A stretch of DNA of 64,000 nt from Pseudomonas bijieensis (lineage in GTDB: Bacteria > Pseudomonadota > Gammaproteobacteria > Pseudomonadales > Pseudomonadaceae). Below the pieces are notes generated by a model. It was not told the origin of the DNA, ran no database searches, and worked only from the letters and a program-made list of their open reading frames with translations. Shown piece after piece: positions 6,964 to 14,142 of the stretch; position 1 is the first letter of the stretch, and each line of letters opens with the position of its first letter. The stretch is from contig NZ_CP048810.1 of NCBI RefSeq assembly GCF_013347965.1, forward strand, positions 1,736,001-1,800,000. The letters are read 5' to 3'. Both the position numbers and the translations under genes were made by a program.

Positions 6964-7044
6964 GGTTCACTCCTGTGAGGGGGCCGCCTGAGCATAGTGC
7001 AGTGATGCGGGTTAAGGGGGCAGATCCGGGATCGAGGTGACGCT

Positions 7045-7140
7045 CATCGCGAGCAGGCTCGCTCCCACAAGGGGCCATTGGTGGTAAGTCGTCATGTGTT
7101 CAAAACACAATCCATGTGGGAGCGAGCCTGCTCGCGATGA
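7045..7140. repeat. REPIN (GCGAGCCTGCTCGCGA class)
   Basis: Inverted arms CATCGCGAGCAGGCTCGCTC and TGTGGGAGCGAGCCTGCTCG lie around a 45-base spacer between the PLD-like gene and the end of chlD. The arm order is reversed compared with the 4806 copy. Confidence 0.85.
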
Positions 7141-7163
7141 GGCTCGATCCAACACCGTAAATC

Positions 7164-7835
7164 TCAGCTAGATAGCCCTTCATCGATATGCCGATACTCC
7201 GCCCCCAACTGCCCCGCCAGTTGCCGGGCCCGACCCAGGCGAATCGGGCCGCGCTCGATGTCGATCAACAGGCACGGGCAATCCAGGCATGGCAGTGCCA
7301 GCCCTTCTTTCACTCGCCCATCCGTCATCACCAACACCCGCTGCTGCTCCGCAGGGAAACGCTTGCGTCGCGCCGTCAACCACCGCCCGGCCTCGTTCAG
7401 CGCCGCCAGCAACGGCGTACCGCCACCGGCGCCCAGGCCATCGAGCCAGTTGCGCAGGCCGGCGGAGGCCTTGAGCCCTTGCACCCGCCAGTTCGGCGCA
7501 GTGCCGCTGGCCGTCAGCAGGGCCAAGCGGGCGCGTTGTCGGTAGGCGTCGTCGAACAGTTGCGCCAGCAAGCCTTTGCCATCGCTGAGGGCTCGATGCC
7601 GACGGGTCGAGGCCGAGGCATCGACGATGACCAGCCACAGCTCATGGGCCGAGCGGTGGCGACCGTGAAAACGCAGGTCTTCATGCAGGCGTGGACGGCC
7701 ATTGAGTAACGTGCCCGGCCAGTTCACCACACCACTGGTCGTCGCTTTGCTCCGGCCCTGGCGCCCCTGGTCGAGCCGTCCGGCACGGGGTCTGGCATTC
7801 GCCCCCGCCGGTGAACGGGGGCGAATGCCTAGGGC
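7164..7835 (-). CDS. chlD: ChlD C-terminal half: von Willebrand A domain reached by -1 frameshift
   Basis: This frame carries a basic linker (RPRAGRLDQGRQGRSKA) and a VWA domain with the MIDAS motif DASAST, the threonine segment GGGTPLLAAL and VMTDGRV. It is open only from a TGA near 7857 and has no ATG or well-placed start before a GTG at 7730. That GTG would discard the conserved linker. It overlaps the end of the ATPase frame and is entered at codon GCC (7835) after a -1 slip on A_AAA_AAG. Joined to residues 1-332 of the ATPase frame it gives a 555-residue protein of normal ChlD size. In the cobalt chelatase the VWA half bridges the AAA+ ring and the CobN subunit. Independent initiation at a CTG inside the overlap is the main alternative. 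Confidence 0.85.
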   Translation of the reverse strand, partial: ALGIRPRSPAGANARPRAGRLDQGRQGRSKATTSGVVNWPGTLLNGRPRLHEDLRFHGRHRSAHELWLVIVDASASTRRHRALSDGKGLLAQLFDDAYRQRARLALLTASGTAPNWRVQGLKASAGLRNWLDGLGAGGGTPLLAALNEAGRWLTARRKRFPAEQQRVLVMTDGRVKEGLALPCLDCPCLLIDIERGPIRLGRARQLAGQLGAEYRHIDEGLSS

Positions 7836-7841
7836 TTTTTT
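7794..7841 (-). promoter_or_regulatory. -1 programmed ribosomal frameshift signal (slippery site plus hairpin)
   Basis: On the minus strand the zero frame reads CCA AAA AAG CCC TAG. The heptamer A_AAA_AAG (7841 down to 7835) is the strongest known bacterial -1 slippery sequence, as used in E. coli dnaX. Five bases later a perfect 14-bp stem begins: GGCATTCGCCCCCG (7829-7816) pairs with CGGGGGCGAATGCC (7807-7794) around an 8-base loop. The zero-frame stop lies in the spacer and first stem base. The -1 frame continues into the VWA domain. The hairpin has no U-run after it, so it is not a terminator. Confidence 0.88.
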
Positions 7842-8830
7842 GGCCAGCTCGGCACTTCACGCCGGGCACCCGTCGGCAATGCCTGGGCCGGCAAATCACC
7901 CCACTGGCCCTGGCCTTCGCTGGGCTGAGCCGTTGCATTGACAGGTGTTTGCGGCGCCTGGGACGGTGTCGGTGCCGAATGCCCGCGTCGACGGTGACGC
8001 AAGGCAAACTCGGCGACAGCATCGATGTCTTCAGCGGCGATGACATCCGCTCCACGCCAAGCGGCATGGGCCCGGGCAGCCCTTAGCCAGACCAGATCGG
8101 CGCGCAAGCCATCGACCCCGGCGGCAAAGCAGCGCTCGGTAATCTGCGCCAGCGCCGCGTCATCCAGGGCAATCGCGGCCAAGCGGTTGCGCGCCTGCTG
8201 GCAACGTTCGCGCAGCTGCTGCTGGGCCATCTCCCATTCCGCGCAGAACCCCGCCGGATCACTGTCGAAATCCAAGCGGCGCCGAATGATCTGCCCGCGC
8301 TCGGCGGGTGCGGTGTGACCGTCGAGAGCCACGTTCAGGCCGAAACGGTCGAGCAATTGCGGACGCAGTTCGCCCTCTTCCGGGTTCATGGTGCCGATCA
8401 ACACAAAACGCGCCGGGTGTCGGTGGGAAATTCCGTCGCGTTCGATCAGGTTGGTGCCGCTGGCGGCCACATCGAGCAGCAGATCCACCAAGTGATCGGG
8501 CAGCAGGTTCACTTCATCGACGTACAACACGCCGCCGTCGGCCTTGGCCAGCACGCCGGGAGAGAACTGCGCGCGCCCTTCTCCTAAAGCTGCGTCCAGA
8601 TCGAGGGTCCCCACCAGCCGCTCTTCAGTGGCACCGAGGGGCAAGGTGACGAACTGACCACTGGCCAGCAGATCCGCCAGGCCTCGGGCCAACGTGGACT
8701 TGGCCATGCCTCGCGGGCCTTCGATCAGCACGCCACCGATTTTCGGATCGATGGCGGCCAGGCACAGGGCGAGCTTCAAGTCATCGGCGCCGACCACAGC
8801 GGAGAGCGGGAAATGGGGGGTGTCGGTCAT
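7829..8830 (-). CDS. chlD: AAA+ ATPase: ChlI-like small subunit and N-terminal half of ChlD (cobalt chelatase)
   Basis: This 333-residue zero-frame product is a magnesium/cobalt-chelatase-type AAA+ motor. Walker A is IEGPRGMAKSTLARG (about residue 38), Walker B is GGVLYVDEVNLLPDHL, sensor 1 is the asparagine in IGTMNPEEG, and the arginine finger region is LLDRFGLNV. It ends in a Pro-rich linker and stops at TAG (7829-7831) just after the slippery site. The start at 8830 (MTDTPHF) is chosen because the upstream extension runs through the REP repeat. It powers cobalt insertion into hydrogenobyrinic acid a,c-diamide with CobN. It lies 174 bases downstream of cobN on the same strand. Confidence 0.88.
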   Translation of the reverse strand: MTDTPHFPLSAVVGADDLKLALCLAAIDPKIGGVLIEGPRGMAKSTLARGLADLLASGQFVTLPLGATEERLVGTLDLDAALGEGRAQFSPGVLAKADGGVLYVDEVNLLPDHLVDLLLDVAASGTNLIERDGISHRHPARFVLIGTMNPEEGELRPQLLDRFGLNVALDGHTAPAERGQIIRRRLDFDSDPAGFCAEWEMAQQQLRERCQQARNRLAAIALDDAALAQITERCFAAGVDGLRADLVWLRAARAHAAWRGADVIAAEDIDAVAEFALRHRRRGHSAPTPSQAPQTPVNATAQPSEGQGQWGDLPAQALPTGARREVPSWPKKP

Positions 8831-8861
8831 ATTGAATGTCTCATGAAATGTGCGAGGTTCC

Positions 8862-8982
8862 CTGTGGCGAGGGAGCTTGCTCCCGCTGGGGCGCGAAGCG
8901 GCCCCCAGAATCTGAGGTCCCAGTGCTGTTTCAGAATGACGACTGCTGCGCAGCCGAGCGGGAGCAAGCTCCCTCGCCACAA
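8862..8982. repeat. REP-type inverted repeat (GGCGAGGGAGCTTGCTCCC class)
   Basis: Arms TGTGGCGAGGGAGCTTGCTC (8864 on) and its complement GAGCAAGCTCCCTCGCCACA (ending at 8982) are separated by about 80 bases. The spacer itself has inner inverted arms (CCCGCTGGGGCGC / GCGCAGCCGAGCGGG). The element occupies the cobN-chlD gap. Confidence 0.75.
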
Positions 8983-9004
8983 ATGCGCGCCTGTCATCCT
9001 CATG

Positions 9005-12000
9005 TCAGTTCTCTTCTTCTATGTCCAACAACAAACTCTCCAGCGCCTGGCGATACTCGCCCGGCTCCTGCCACATCCCCCGCTGCTGCGCTTCGAGCAT
9101 GCGCTCGGTCATGTCCCGCAGGGCATCGGGGTTGTGCTGGCGGACGAAATCCCGGGTGTCCGGGTCGAGCAGGTAGGCATCGGCCAGCAAGGCGTACTGG
9201 TGATCGTCGATCAATTGCGTGGTGGCGTCGAACGCGAACAGGTTGTCCACCGTCGCCGCCAGTTCGAACGCACCTTTATAGCCGTGACGCTTCACGCCGT
9301 CGATCCACTTCGGATTCGCCGCGCGGGAGCGGATGACGCGGTTGAGTTCTTCCTTCAGGGTGCGGATCTTTGGCAAATCCGGCTGGCTGTGATCGCCATG
9401 GTAGCTGGCCGCCACGTCGCCACTGAGGGTCTCCACCGCGGCCAGCATGCCTCCCTGGAACTGGTAGTAATCGTTGGAATCGAGCAGGTCGTGCTCGCGG
9501 TTGTCCTGGTTCTGCAACACCGCCTGCACCTGGCTCAAGCGCCGGGAGAACTGCTCCCGGGCGACAGTGCCTTCATCGCTGGTGCCGTAGGCGTAGCCGC
9601 CCCAGTTCAGGTACACCTCGGCCAGGTCTTCGCGGCTCTGCCACAAGCGCCCGTCGATCGCGCCCTGCACGCCCGCGCCATAGGCACCAGGCTTGGCGCC
9701 GAAGATCCGCCAACCGGCCTGGCGAGCCGCAACCTCTGGTTCGAGCCCCGAGGCCAGCAGGGCTTCGCGCTCGCCACGCACCTTGGCCGCCAAGGGGTTC
9801 ATGTCGTCCGGCTCATCGAGGGCGGCGACAGCCTGCACCGCCGCATCGAACAGGCGGATCAGGTTGGCGAAGGCGTCACGAAAAAAACCTGACACCCGCA
9901 GCGTCACATCGACCCGCGGTCGGTCCAACAGGCTCAACGGCAGAATCTCGAAATCATCGACCCGCTGACTGCCGGTGGCCCACACCGGACGCACGCCCAT
10001 CAGCGCCATGGCCTGGGCGATGTCGTCGCCGCCGGTGCGCATGGTGGCGGTGCCCCACACCGAGAGGCCGAGCTGACGCAAGTGGTCACCATGATCCTGC
10101 AAGTGCCGCTCAAGGATCAGGTTCGCCGATTGGAAACCGATACGCCACGCCGTGGTGGTGGGCAGGTTACGCACGTCCACGGAGAAGAAGTTGCGCCCGG
10201 TGGGCAACACATCCAGGCGGCCACGACTCGGCGCGCCGCTGGGGCCGGCCGGGACGAAGCGCCCGTCCAGGGCGTCGAGCAAGCCGCGCATTTCCGCCGG
10301 GCCGCAGGCGTCCAGGCGTGGGGCCACGACGGATCGCAGGTTTTCAATGATGCTGCTGACCGCCTCCCAACCCGAGACATTCAATTGTTCGACCGCGCCA
10401 TCCAGGGCCTGCTCGATCAACTGCGCAGCGAACAACTCCAGGCGCTCTCGGGTATCGCCAGCGGTGCGCCAAGGCTCGGCGCTGACCCGGCGCAACGCCT
10501 CGGGACAGTCGCCAGTCCAGGGCTCGGCCAAGGCACAATCCAGCGGATCGAAACCCAGCCCGAACGCCTTGGCCAGCGCTCGCAGCAGGCTCGACTGCGC
10601 GCCCTTGCCATCGCCACGGGGTATGCGCAGCAACGCCAGCAGCGTGTCGATACGCAGGCGACCGCTGGGCGACTCACCAAAAATATGCAGGCCATCGCGG
10701 ATCTGCGATTCCTTCAAATCACACAGATAGGTGTCCAGGCGCGGCAGCCAGATCGCTGCGTCGGCATCGCTGTCGAGCGCGGCATCGAGTTGCAGCTCGC
10801 GGTCGATGTGCGTCTCACGCACCAGGTTCAGGATGTCCCGTTGCAGTTCCCGGGCGCGGCGCGGATCGAGCAATTGCGCTTCGTAGTATTCGTCGGCCAA
10901 CAGCTCAAGGTTACGCAATGGACCGTAGGTTTCGGCGCGGGTCAGCGGCGGCATCAAGTGGTCGATGATCACCGCTTGAGTACGACGCTTGGCCTGAGCG
11001 CCCTCACCCGGGTCGTTGACGATGAATGGATAGATATTCGGCAGCGGTCCCAACAATGCATCGGGCCAGCAACTCTCCGACAGCCCGACGCCCTTGCCCG
11101 GCAGCCATTCGAGATTGCCGTGCTTGCCGACGTGGATAACCCCGTGGACGCCGTAGGTGTGGCGCAACCAGAAATAAAACGCCAGGTAACCGTGGGGTGG
11201 CACCAGGTCAGGATCGTGGTACACCGCGCTTGGATCGACCTGATAACCCCGGGCCGGCTGGATGCCGACGAAGGTCAGGCCCAGGCGCAGACCGGCGACC
11301 ATCAGGCGCCCGTCGCGGAACATCGGATCCTGCTCGGGCGAGCCCCAACGCTCCAGCACCGCCTGGCGGTTGGCCTCGGGCAATGCCTCGAACAGGGCCT
11401 GGTAAGCGTCGAGGGCCAGGCTCTGGTGACACGGGCGCAAGTCGAGGCTGTCCAGGTCGTTGCTGACGCCACCGAGCAATTGCTGGATCAGCGCGGTACC
11501 GCTGGTTGGCAGTTCGCCCGGCAATGGATAACCCTCGGCCTGCATGGCGCGCAGGATATTCAGCGCCGCCGCCGGGGTATCCAGGCCGACACCGTTGCCG
11601 ATTCGCCCGTCCCGGGTCGGGTAGTTGGCAAGGATCAGCGCCACGCGCTTTTCGGCGTTGGGCAGGCGCGCCAGGGTGGTCCAGCGCCGGGCCAGTTCGG
11701 CGACAAAATCCATGCGTTCGGGCACGGCCCGGTAACAGACCACATCGCTCTGGCTGCGCTCGCTGCGCCAGGCCAGGTCCTTGAAACTGATGGGGCGGCT
11801 GATGATCCGTCCGTCCAACTCCGGCAAGGCAATGTGCATCGCCAGGTCCCGCGGGCCCAGGCCCTGTTCGCTGGCGCGCCAGCCGGGTTCGTTGTCCTGG
11901 GCACAGATCGCCTGGATCACCGGGATGTTGCGGCGAAACGGCCGCAGGTGCGGCGCTTCAGGGCTGGATTGGGCGAAACCGGTGGTGTTGAGAATCACGC

Positions 12001-12778
12001 CGGCTTCGACCTCATCCAGCCAATCTTCCACCAGCGCGAGGCAACCGGGTTCCTTGAGGCTGGCCACGGCAATCGGCAACGGATTGAGCCCCGCCCCTTG
12101 CAGGCGCTGGCAGAACACGTCGATGAACGCGGTGTTAGCCGCTTGCAGGTGGGAGCGATAGAACAGCACCGCCGCCACCGGTAGATCGGCCTGCCAGTCG
12201 GCTTGCCAATCGCCGAGGCTGGCGTTGGTGTTTGCGGGGTGATAGATCGCCGTGCGCGGCAGGGTTTGCGGTTCCCCCCACGGATAATCGCGGCCGAACC
12301 ATAGGCTGCCCAGGTTGTGAAACAGGTCCAGGGCATTGCCCAACCCGCCCTGGCGCAAGAACTGCCAGAGCCGGTCGCGATCCTCGATGGGCACGTTGCT
12401 CAGGTCGCTGAGTTCCGGGTCCGGGCGATCGTCCCCCGGTACCAGGATCAGCTTCACCCCACGCCCGGCCAGCTCCATCAGGCGCTCGATGCCGTAGCGC
12501 CAATAGCCGATACCGCCGTGCAGCGACAACAGGATGACCTTGGCGTGGCGCAGTACATCCTCGAAGTACAGGTCCACCGAGGCGTGGTTCTGCACCTGCA
12601 TCGGGTTGGCGAGACGAAACTCCGGGTAATCGTCCGGCAATTGCCTGGCCGCCTCGGCCAGCAGCGCCAGGCTGGAGTCGCCGCTGCACAGGATCACCAG
12701 TTCAGCGGGGGTTTGCCCCAGGTCGGCAATGTTGTCGTCCGATACAAAGCCGCCGGGCTGGGTCCTGAGCAGGTGCAT
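9005..12778 (-). CDS. cobN: cobaltochelatase large subunit CobN
   Basis: This 1257-residue protein has full CobN/BchH-family length. Characteristic blocks are LSLHGGIGYWRYG near residue 85, YGVHGVIHVGKHGNLEWLPG near 550 (the conserved HGxxEWxPG region) and RTGGDDIAQAMALMGVRP near 920. It binds the corrin ring and inserts Co2+ in the aerobic B12 pathway, driven by the AAA+/VWA subunits. Its ATG (12778) lies three bases after the cobW stop, so it shares the cobW transcript and the cobalamin riboswitch. Downstream comes chlD, which supplies the remaining subunits. Recognition is strong over the whole length. Confidence 0.97.
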   Translation of the reverse strand: MHLLRTQPGGFVSDDNIADLGQTPAELVILCSGDSSLALLAEAARQLPDDYPEFRLANPMQVQNHASVDLYFEDVLRHAKVILLSLHGGIGYWRYGIERLMELAGRGVKLILVPGDDRPDPELSDLSNVPIEDRDRLWQFLRQGGLGNALDLFHNLGSLWFGRDYPWGEPQTLPRTAIYHPANTNASLGDWQADWQADLPVAAVLFYRSHLQAANTAFIDVFCQRLQGAGLNPLPIAVASLKEPGCLALVEDWLDEVEAGVILNTTGFAQSSPEAPHLRPFRRNIPVIQAICAQDNEPGWRASEQGLGPRDLAMHIALPELDGRIISRPISFKDLAWRSERSQSDVVCYRAVPERMDFVAELARRWTTLARLPNAEKRVALILANYPTRDGRIGNGVGLDTPAAALNILRAMQAEGYPLPGELPTSGTALIQQLLGGVSNDLDSLDLRPCHQSLALDAYQALFEALPEANRQAVLERWGSPEQDPMFRDGRLMVAGLRLGLTFVGIQPARGYQVDPSAVYHDPDLVPPHGYLAFYFWLRHTYGVHGVIHVGKHGNLEWLPGKGVGLSESCWPDALLGPLPNIYPFIVNDPGEGAQAKRRTQAVIIDHLMPPLTRAETYGPLRNLELLADEYYEAQLLDPRRARELQRDILNLVRETHIDRELQLDAALDSDADAAIWLPRLDTYLCDLKESQIRDGLHIFGESPSGRLRIDTLLALLRIPRGDGKGAQSSLLRALAKAFGLGFDPLDCALAEPWTGDCPEALRRVSAEPWRTAGDTRERLELFAAQLIEQALDGAVEQLNVSGWEAVSSIIENLRSVVAPRLDACGPAEMRGLLDALDGRFVPAGPSGAPSRGRLDVLPTGRNFFSVDVRNLPTTTAWRIGFQSANLILERHLQDHGDHLRQLGLSVWGTATMRTGGDDIAQAMALMGVRPVWATGSQRVDDFEILPLSLLDRPRVDVTLRVSGFFRDAFANLIRLFDAAVQAVAALDEPDDMNPLAAKVRGEREALLASGLEPEVAARQAGWRIFGAKPGAYGAGVQGAIDGRLWQSREDLAEVYLNWGGYAYGTSDEGTVAREQFSRRLSQVQAVLQNQDNREHDLLDSNDYYQFQGGMLAAVETLSGDVAASYHGDHSQPDLPKIRTLKEELNRVIRSRAANPKWIDGVKRHGYKGAFELAATVDNLFAFDATTQLIDDHQYALLADAYLLDPDTRDFVRQHNPDALRDMTERMLEAQQRGMWQEPGEYRQALESLLLDIEEEN

Positions 12779-12781
12779 GGC

Positions 12782-13846
12782 TTAGGCGCTGAGGGCGGCG
12801 CGCAACTGCGCTTCAAGCAGCGCGGCATCGAGCGCCTGGCCGATCAGCACCAGCCGGGTGACCCGCGCTTCGTCGGCGCCCCACTGGCGGTCGAAATGCT
12901 TGTCGAACCGCGTACCAACGCCTTGGATCAGCAAGCGCATCGGCTTGTTCGGGATCGCCGCGAAACCCTTGACCCGCAGCACGCCGTGCTGGACCACCAG
13001 TTGCGTCAGCGCGTCCAGCAACAGGCTTTCGTCGGCCTGGGGCAACTCGATGGAAATGGAATCGAAGGCGTCATGATCATGGTCGTCATCGTCACCATCG
13101 TGGTGATGGTCGTGATGGCTGTGGCGGCCGTCGATGTGCTCTTCGGAACCGGCGCCCAGGCCGATCAGCACGTCCAGCGGCAGGCGACCGCTGCTGGCTT
13201 CGATGACCTTGACCGCCGGCGGCAGCTCTTCGGCCACTTCCAGGCGGACTTTGGCCAGGTCTTCCGGACTGATCAGGTCGGCTTTGTTGAGGATCACCAG
13301 GTCGGCGCTGGCCAGTTGATCGGCGAACAGCTCGTGCAACGGTGATTCGTGGTCCAGGTTCGGATCGAGTTTGCGCTGGGCATCGACCTGGTCAGGGAAG
13401 GCAGCGAAGGTACCAGCGGCCACGGCCGGGCTGTCGACCACCGTGATTACCGCATCGACGGTGCAAGCGCTGCGGATTTCCGGCCATTGAAAGGCCTGGA
13501 CCAACGGCTTGGGCAGGGCCAGGCCGGAGGTTTCGATGAGGATGTGGTCGAGATCGCCGCGCCGGGCCACAAGTTCGCGCATCACCGGGAAGAACTCTTC
13601 CTGCACGGTGCAGCACAGGCAGCCGTTGGCCAGTTCGTAAACGCGGCCGTTGGCTTCTTCTTCGGTGCAACCGATGGAGCACTGCTTGAGGATCTCGCCG
13701 TCGATGCCCAGCTCGCCGAACTCGTTGACGATCACAGCGATGCGGCGGCCCTGGGCGTTGTCGAGCATGTGCCGCAGCAAGGTGGTTTTGCCCGAGCCGA
13801 GGAAACCGGTGACGATGGTGACGGGAAGTTTGGCCAGTGTTTTCAT
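12782..13846 (-). CDS. cobW: CobW-type GTPase/cobalt chaperone
   Basis: A 354-residue COG0523 G3E GTPase. The P-loop is [13 protein letters not shown] (about residue 14), then VIVNEFGELGIDG, the metal site NGCLCC (about 79) and the NKAD guanine motif (about 190). A His/Asp-rich stretch (HHDHHHDGDDDDHDHD, about residues 245-270) is a probable metal-binding loop. CobW is thought to deliver Co2+ to the chelatase. ATG 13846 has an AAGGGG site; a longer in-frame version would start inside the riboswitch and is rejected. It is the first gene of the riboswitch-controlled cobW-cobN-chlD operon. Confidence 0.95.
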   Translation of the reverse strand: MKTLAKLPVTIVTGFLGSGKTTLLRHMLDNAQGRRIAVIVNEFGELGIDGEILKQCSIGCTEEEANGRVYELANGCLCCTVQEEFFPVMRELVARRGDLDHILIETSGLALPKPLVQAFQWPEIRSACTVDAVITVVDSPAVAAGTFAAFPDQVDAQRKLDPNLDHESPLHELFADQLASADLVILNKADLISPEDLAKVRLEVAEELPPAVKVIEASSGRLPLDVLIGLGAGSEEHIDGRHSHHDHHHDGDDDDHDHDAFDSISIELPQADESLLLDALTQLVVQHGVLRVKGFAAIPNKPMRLLIQGVGTRFDKHFDRQWGADEARVTRLVLIGQALDAALLEAQLRAALSA

Positions 13847-13956
13847 CCGATGCCCCTTGGCAAAGTGGCGGGCAAACGGGACGACAACCGCAGGCAAGGC
13901 ACGCGCGGAAGATTTCGCCACCGGATCACCCCGCCCGGTTGTAGTGAGAATCTGTG

Positions 13957-14142
13957 TCGAGGCAGGTCTCCTGGCTGACGGCGGGCCAGTCATTGACTGG
14001 CGATTGCTGCGCCTTCCCGTGCGCCTGTTGTAATGGGCATGCACAGTGGCCTTGCAGAAACAGCACCGTTCACAGTTGCGGGGGCAGCCGCGGCTTGGAC
14101 CGCGTTCCCTTCTTAGCTTCGGCACAGGCCGAAGAACCTCGA
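13957..14142 (-). promoter_or_regulatory. cobalamin riboswitch upstream of cobW
   Basis: On the minus strand the closing stem pairs TCGAGG (14142-14137) with CCTCGA (13962-13957). Inside are the conserved core GCTGCCCCCGCAACTGTGAA, the peripheral GGGAACGCGGT segment and the B12-box-like 3' end GCCAGGAGACCTGCC. It ends about 110 bases before the cobW start. Adenosylcobalamin binding would reduce expression of cobW-cobN-chlD. Confidence 0.92.

Follow-up and report, generated by a model that had tools for sequence, protein, structure and literature searches.

The window, by which we mean the whole 64,000-nt stretch of DNA that was analysed, comes from Pseudomonas bijieensis (GCF_013347965.1, NZ_CP048810.1, positions 1,736,001-1,800,000 of the forward strand) and carries on its minus strand a chlD gene whose ATPase and VWA parts lie in two different reading frames. 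The features of the locus, in window coordinates, are the following.

7164-7835, minus strand: -1 frame part, consisting of a basic linker and a VWA domain (translation, VWA_2 match)
7794-7829, minus strand: predicted stimulatory hairpin with a 14-bp stem, an 8-nt loop and a 5-nt spacer (scan, fold, position kept in relatives)
7829-7831, minus strand: zero-frame stop TAG, one codon past the heptamer (sequence)
7835-7841, minus strand: slippery heptamer A_AAA_AAG, in frame (sequence; intact in 159 of 161 loci)
7857-7859, minus strand: TGA, the nearest upstream stop of the -1 frame (sequence)
7829-8830, minus strand: zero-frame ORF for a ChlI-like AAA+ ATPase of 333 aa, read as the small subunit and ending in PKKP-stop (translation, domain matches)
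9005-12778, minus strand: cobN, large cobaltochelatase subunit, just upstream of chlD (TIGR02257, 1726.6 bits)
12782-14029, minus strand: cobW (TIGR02475)

The ATPase frame opens with the ATG at 8830 and ends with the codons CCA AAA AAG CCC TAG (minus strand). The first A of AAAAAAG (7841-7835, minus strand) occupies a third codon position of this frame, and the original prediction that A_AAA_AAG stands in the correct frame is therefore confirmed. Joined to the -1 part, the ATPase gives a ChlD-like translation of 555 aa, so that both of the predicted reading frames, of 333 and 555 aa, are borne out. The ATPase part comprises AAA_5, AAA_lid_2 and Mg_chelatase domains; it scores 410.7 bits against TIGR02442 (putative cobaltochelatase), the cut-off of which is 779.45, and 340.1 bits against the BchI-ChlI model, again under that model's cut-off, and the -1 part matches C-terminal portions of TIGR02442 and TIGR02031 (BchD-ChlD). 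Scores of this kind would be expected for part of a gene or for a distant member. Since the -1 frame is closed upstream by the TGA at 7859-7857, a -1 shift is confined to approximately 25 nt before the TAG, and the heptamer lies inside this interval. AAAAAAG occurs five times in the window, both strands and the chlD site included, which puts its chance occurrence in the right frame inside the shift interval at about 3 in 10,000.

Inverted repeats that we read as REP/REPIN-like, a name that rests on this reading, flank chlD at 8863-8981 (the gap between cobN and chlD) and at 7043-7141 (just past chlD), with arms of 37 nt and 30 nt. A search of Rfam over 7000-9100 gave no match on the hairpin; it returned only sub-threshold microRNA models, the matches of which sit on the repeat at 8863-8981, and one weak antisense-RNA model.

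Two sets of relatives were compared. The first comprises 80 named Pseudomonas loci, which are the best 80 of 236 encoding a relative and thus lean to close kin, and the second comes from a sample of 148 Pseudomonadaceae genomes, 83 of which have a VWA match; 82 of these were used, the remaining one (G141) being left out because its VWA part lies at a contig end. Both gene parts are present in 161 Pseudomonadaceae loci (80 from the first set and 81 from the second); L168, at a contig end of G025, and six class-level loci were left out because the second part is missing. The 161 loci are not independent, since a species may occur in both sets and the gene of the window itself is among them (L095), and they represent 112 distinct sites. 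An in-frame A_AAA_AAG with the VWA part in the -1 frame was found in 159 of the 161 loci (78 and 81). In all 159, a zero-frame stop (TAG, TGA or TAA) follows one codon past the heptamer and the -1 part is of full length (219-236 codons); the VWA matches of G019 and G001 that were flagged with an internal stop have it at the C-terminal end, at residues 220 and 219. The A run is exactly six nucleotides long in 157 of the 159 loci, with one further A in front in the other two, and the closing G is invariant. In both exceptions among the 161, the A run differs by a single base. That of L023 is five A long, and because its reading frame changes once more, at ATPase residue 91, this locus looks damaged or mis-assembled. 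In L060, which has seven A, chlD reads as an in-frame fusion; a homopolymer difference of one base in a draft assembly may be an error. The comparison had been proposed as a test of the frameshift, with loss of the heptamer while both frames stay intact as the contrary outcome; such loss is absent from 159 of 161 loci, but L060 stands as a candidate case.

Constraint at synonymous sites was measured on a codon alignment of the 159 fused genes, in 3000 random pairs and 549 seven-codon windows. The expectation for a pair was its codon identity per amino acid, taken along the entire gene; low values therefore do not stem from a low divergence of the gene overall. The six lowest of the 549 windows all fall in codons 325-336, which contain the heptamer and the stop, with ratios of observed to expected synonymous difference of 0.15-0.45. 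Ranks 7, 9 and 10 (0.47-0.49) correspond to the 3' arm of the stem, in codons 340-348, and rank 8 (0.48) to codons 331-337; the lowest window elsewhere in the fused gene, codons 123-129, has a ratio of 0.54. The heptamer is thus both retained among other Pseudomonas and covered by the synonymous minimum, in agreement with what the original prediction had anticipated for this comparison.

The perfect 14-bp hairpin with an 8-nt loop predicted 5 nt past the heptamer is indeed present at 7829-7794, with the G of the TAG as the first paired base of its 5' arm. Among stems of at least 11 bp with loops of 3-12 nt, no other perfect hairpin in the window is as long, the next having 12 bp. The RNA of 7780-7850 folds at -38 kcal/mol (z = -3.84), and none of 200 shuffled sequences was as stable. 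The 5-nt spacer is within the range of 5-8 nt given for stimulatory structures in a passage of PMC4066793. RNAfold predicts 11-18 base pairs in the 47 nt past the heptamer in all 159 loci, with a median energy over +7 to +54 of -28.9 kcal/mol and a weakest value of -15.7 kcal/mol. The site is among the most stable 5% of windows of the gene in 73 of the 112 distinct genes, and among the most stable 1% in 62; in the other 39 it lies outside the most stable 5%, which counts against the frameshift reading. The ends of the stem, GCA and TGC, keep their positions in 152 of 159 loci, the stem-loop being 36 nt from end to end; the geometry for counting pairs was anchored on these ends, which are therefore invariant there by construction.

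The inner sequence of the stem varies, with some compensatory changes such as C-G to U-A at columns 18/43. Retention of the stem in relatives, which had been named as a source of support, is found in that the hairpin keeps its spacing from the heptamer even where its inner sequence differs, with covariation that is only moderate. In a set of 24 sequences, of which 23 are relatives drawn from the 110 distinct sites with GCA/TGC ends (three pairs are hence invariant by selection) and of which one supplied the structure itself, 77.7% of cells can pair, as compared with 30-49% in slid versions. The covariation score is 0.127, whereas the slide by -1 scores higher (0.136), and two-sided changes occur in 10 cells, as against 13 and 14 at slides -1 and +2. 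Because covariation is moderate and one slid control exceeds it, the case for the hairpin rests instead on its position, its stability and the synonymous constraint. An upstream stimulator resembling a Shine-Dalgarno (SD) element was also considered and rejected: an SD-like 4-mer was found 3-20 nt upstream of the heptamer in just 10 of 159 loci. With no conserved element of this kind, the hairpin would be the main stimulator. A passage of PMC5009743 asks whether the stem-loop is regulatory and suggests a triplex. The purine run that a triplex would use has a median length of 5 in the window's own genus and of 3 in group g6 and other Pseudomonadaceae, and such a short run in other genera speaks against a triplex as the general mechanism. 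It is tempting to speculate that the hairpin is a control element that would tune the ratio of small to medium subunits to a metal, a polyamine or a cobalamin intermediate, an idea that we consider unlikely; the constant GCA and TGC ends of the stem (152 of 159 loci) may leave room for a bound factor.

Other explanations of the divided gene have to be set against these data. The original prediction held that the VWA frame has no ATG of its own before the domain, and this is correct; two neighbouring GTG codons are present, however, and the one at 7730-7728 opens an ORF of 188 aa that contains the VWA domain. A separate VWA gene initiated at this GTG or at some other non-ATG codon would also agree with the TTG that 80 of 159 loci have before the domain, at residue 42 of the -1 part (counted from 0), and only two of the 159 loci are without any ATG, GTG or TTG before the VWA motif. 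On the contrary, of the two alignment columns that hold the GTG pair of the window, one has GTG in only 6 and the other in only 27 of the 159 loci, an ATG precedes the motif in 19 of 159 and in no more than five at any one position, and the TTG of the relatives is TTA in the gene of the window and CTG in 43 others. None of these 80 TTG codons has an SD-like 4-mer in the 12-nt stretch just upstream, and the commonest GTG (126 of 159, residue 68) falls, by our reading of the sequence, inside the first strand of the VWA domain. Internal initiation, with candidate start codons that are not conserved and no SD-like element, was accordingly rejected; it would also leave the conservation of the heptamer and its synonymous constraint unexplained, and we regard it as very improbable. 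The strength and GC-richness of the hairpin could also suit a signal that ends or attenuates transcription and so limits the VWA part, but the coding strand has no T run after the hairpin, and a scan of 7000-9100 on either strand gave no terminator-like site, so little probability being left to this reading that it can be called negligible.

Poly-A runs slip during transcription in some bacteria, and RNA polymerase might add or drop an A at the chlD run, in which case the mRNAs would differ rather than the ribosomes. The longer A runs of distant relatives (10 A in L125, 7 A in L128 and L130) fit this possibility. An exact run of six A in 157 of 159 loci, an invariant G after it and a hairpin kept downstream do not, and the six A are below the length (n > 7) of the known cases of transcriptional slippage at A runs described in part of PMC3711429; there is accordingly very little chance that transcriptional slippage accounts for the gene. 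L023 and L060, with five and seven A, illustrate that indels at the run do occur in databases, as would be required if the frame break were damage, that is, a pseudogene or a sequencing error. This view is refuted by the conservation of the break itself, which is common to 159 of 161 loci with a -1 part of full length in 159 of 159, and its probability is vanishingly small.

We therefore hold it highly probable, from comparative sequence evidence, that chlD carries a programmed -1 ribosomal frameshift, and that the short and the long cobaltochelatase subunit are probably both products of this one gene. Ribosomes that stay in frame terminate at the TAG and release the 333-aa ATPase, a ChlI/CobS-like small subunit, and the sequence places a heptamer, a spacer and a hairpin of the standard kind where the two frames can be joined by a -1 shift. 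In the other ribosomes, the hairpin would cause a stall when AAA occupies the P site and AAG the A site; the two tRNA-Lys(UUU) would then slip back by one base and pair with AAA AAA, after which synthesis would continue across the linker and the VWA domain and yield the ChlD-like medium subunit of 555 aa. Both products would assemble with CobN as the aerobic cobaltochelatase, and the rate of slippage would set their ratio. In E. coli, A_AAA_AAG owes its great slipperiness to the decoding of AAG by a UUU anticodon, and a lone tRNA-Lys(UUU), without tRNA-Lys(CUU), is a feature of slippage at this heptamer. A survey of tRNAs gave 64 matches over the cut-off, and ARAGORN, run on stretches covering them, made 121 calls, one of them without a readable anticodon; four are tRNA-Lys, all with anticodon UUU, and no tRNA-Lys(CUU) is among the calls over these stretches. 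A title cited in PMC4066793 refers to an unstable interaction between tRNA-Lys and the AAG codon.

The gene content of the genome agrees with such an assignment of subunits. The 6.73-Mb genome of P. bijieensis has one ATPase of the ChlI type, the next best match having an E value of 3e-8 and 30% identity, and a search of it for CobT (TIGR01651) gave no match, with a positive Caulobacter control. With chlD beside cobN and cobW, a single ATPase and no CobT, chlD is read as the gene for the small and medium subunits of an aerobic cobaltochelatase, and the enzyme is most likely a cobaltochelatase, partner of CobN, and not the magnesium chelatase of chlorophyll synthesis. In the family sample, the ATPase was found at E <= 1e-40 in 84 of 148 genomes, including that of the window, with one match per genome in all 84 (at most 14 candidates were scored per genome). 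CobN is over its cut-off in 85 of 148, namely, by comparison of the lists by eye, the same 84 and G025, in which chlD is cut by a contig end and a VWA match is present; G004 and G134 lack such an ATPase, and their cobN-like matches stay under the cut-off. Thus, a single gene appears to encode both the small and the medium subunit across the family as sampled. The cobN match of G108 (C1:3035631-3039355) is in two adjacent pieces (1-413 and 414-1225), possibly owing to a frame break or a sequencing error, and the P. bijieensis genome holds a further VWA-type match to TIGR02442 (C1:3991495-3991983, 49.9 bits) in an open frame of 606 aa.

At the level of the class, a match at E <= 1e-60 was found in 17 of 274 genomes, including that of the window, which leaves 16 relatives. 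Ten of these have a VWA match: four are of the -1 type (L125, L128, L130 and L131), five are fused (L127, L129, L132, L134 and L139) and one (L126) gave no clear assignment. The ORF of L133 (575 aa) shows it to be fused, and L135-L138 and L140 come from genomes whose one match exceeds the ChlI cut-off of TIGR02030. No run of six A was found in the linkers of the five fused genes; the linker of L127 has two other slippery-like heptamers, which are out of frame for a -1 shift. Six gammaproteobacterial genomes with cobN over the cut-off have a single fused chlD (G339, G418, G198, G175, G173 and G165), and none of the six has a second BchI-ChlI match at E <= 1e-30. In these six, either a single long product would suffice or the short one would be made in another way, and such fused-only relatives make the need for a short subunit a testable question. 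The original prediction that both products are needed is accordingly not supported. One of them, the very small genome G165 (approximately 0.4 Mb), keeps cobN and the fused 575-aa chlD (L133:658-2385), in whose linker lie A runs of 10 and 11, the longest of that gene; after a -1 slip at these runs, translation would reach a stop only a few codons on and leave a short form of the ATPase. G165 is rich in A runs (86 and 71 matches to A10), and those of L133 are therefore possibly due to chance.

The key 2020 paper on this topic is that of Antonov in Mol. Biol. Evol. Through a frameshift in chlD, a single gene can provide two subunits of the enzyme that inserts cobalt in aerobic B12 synthesis, which also explains why standard gene calling splits or misnames chlD in Pseudomonas. 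Set beside the published accounts described below, the present analysis shows how far the signal is conserved (161 loci), where synonymous difference is lowest, that chlD and cobN occur together in the family sample, that no tRNA-Lys(CUU) was found and that fused-only relatives exist. Earlier work places Pseudomonas among the six genera of a magnesium-chelatase cluster that comprises 23 -1 fs-genes; three cassettes from this cluster gave 63, 40 and 10% frameshifting in E. coli (Antonov et al., 2013, NAR, PMC3711429). The three published cassettes have A runs of 11, 9 and 7 (PMC3711429), so that none had the six-A run of the present chlD, which counts against the frameshift here. In the relevant part of a later review, Pseudomonas is named, A_AAA_AAR is placed under strong purifying selection, and the stem-loop of P. 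protegens is printed, its stem sequence being called not strongly conserved (Atkins et al., 2016, NAR, PMC5009743). Frameshifting in chlD supplies both subunits in B12 producers, according to a further study (Kuznetsov et al., 2022, PMC9227772).

Among known systems, E. coli dnaX (tau/gamma) resembles chlD in having A_AAA_AAG, a downstream hairpin and two products per gene. As excerpts from the literature have it, the shift in dnaX gives the short product and is helped by an upstream SD-like stimulator, whereas in chlD it would give the long product with no conserved stimulator. The CobN-CobS-CobT cobaltochelatase catalyses the same reaction with the same large subunit; its small and medium subunits are separate genes, whereas CobT was not found here. 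The closest likeness is to the chlD genes already known to be frameshifted, with overlapping ATPase and VWA frames, a -1 shift site of the form A_AAA_AAR and a downstream hairpin, all of which are found here, and with cobN present and no separate gene for the small subunit, as in the P. bijieensis genome and the family sample. The P. protegens stem-loop, as printed in part of PMC5009743, opens with GGCAT, as does the one described here. There is no difference in kind: the gene is that of another Pseudomonas, and the cassettes measured in 2013 had longer A runs. The original prediction had said that the principle is not new, and a chlD frameshift signal is already described in the genus Pseudomonas, in publications of 2013 and 2016; the finding is therefore the confirmation of a known phenomenon in another Pseudomonas.
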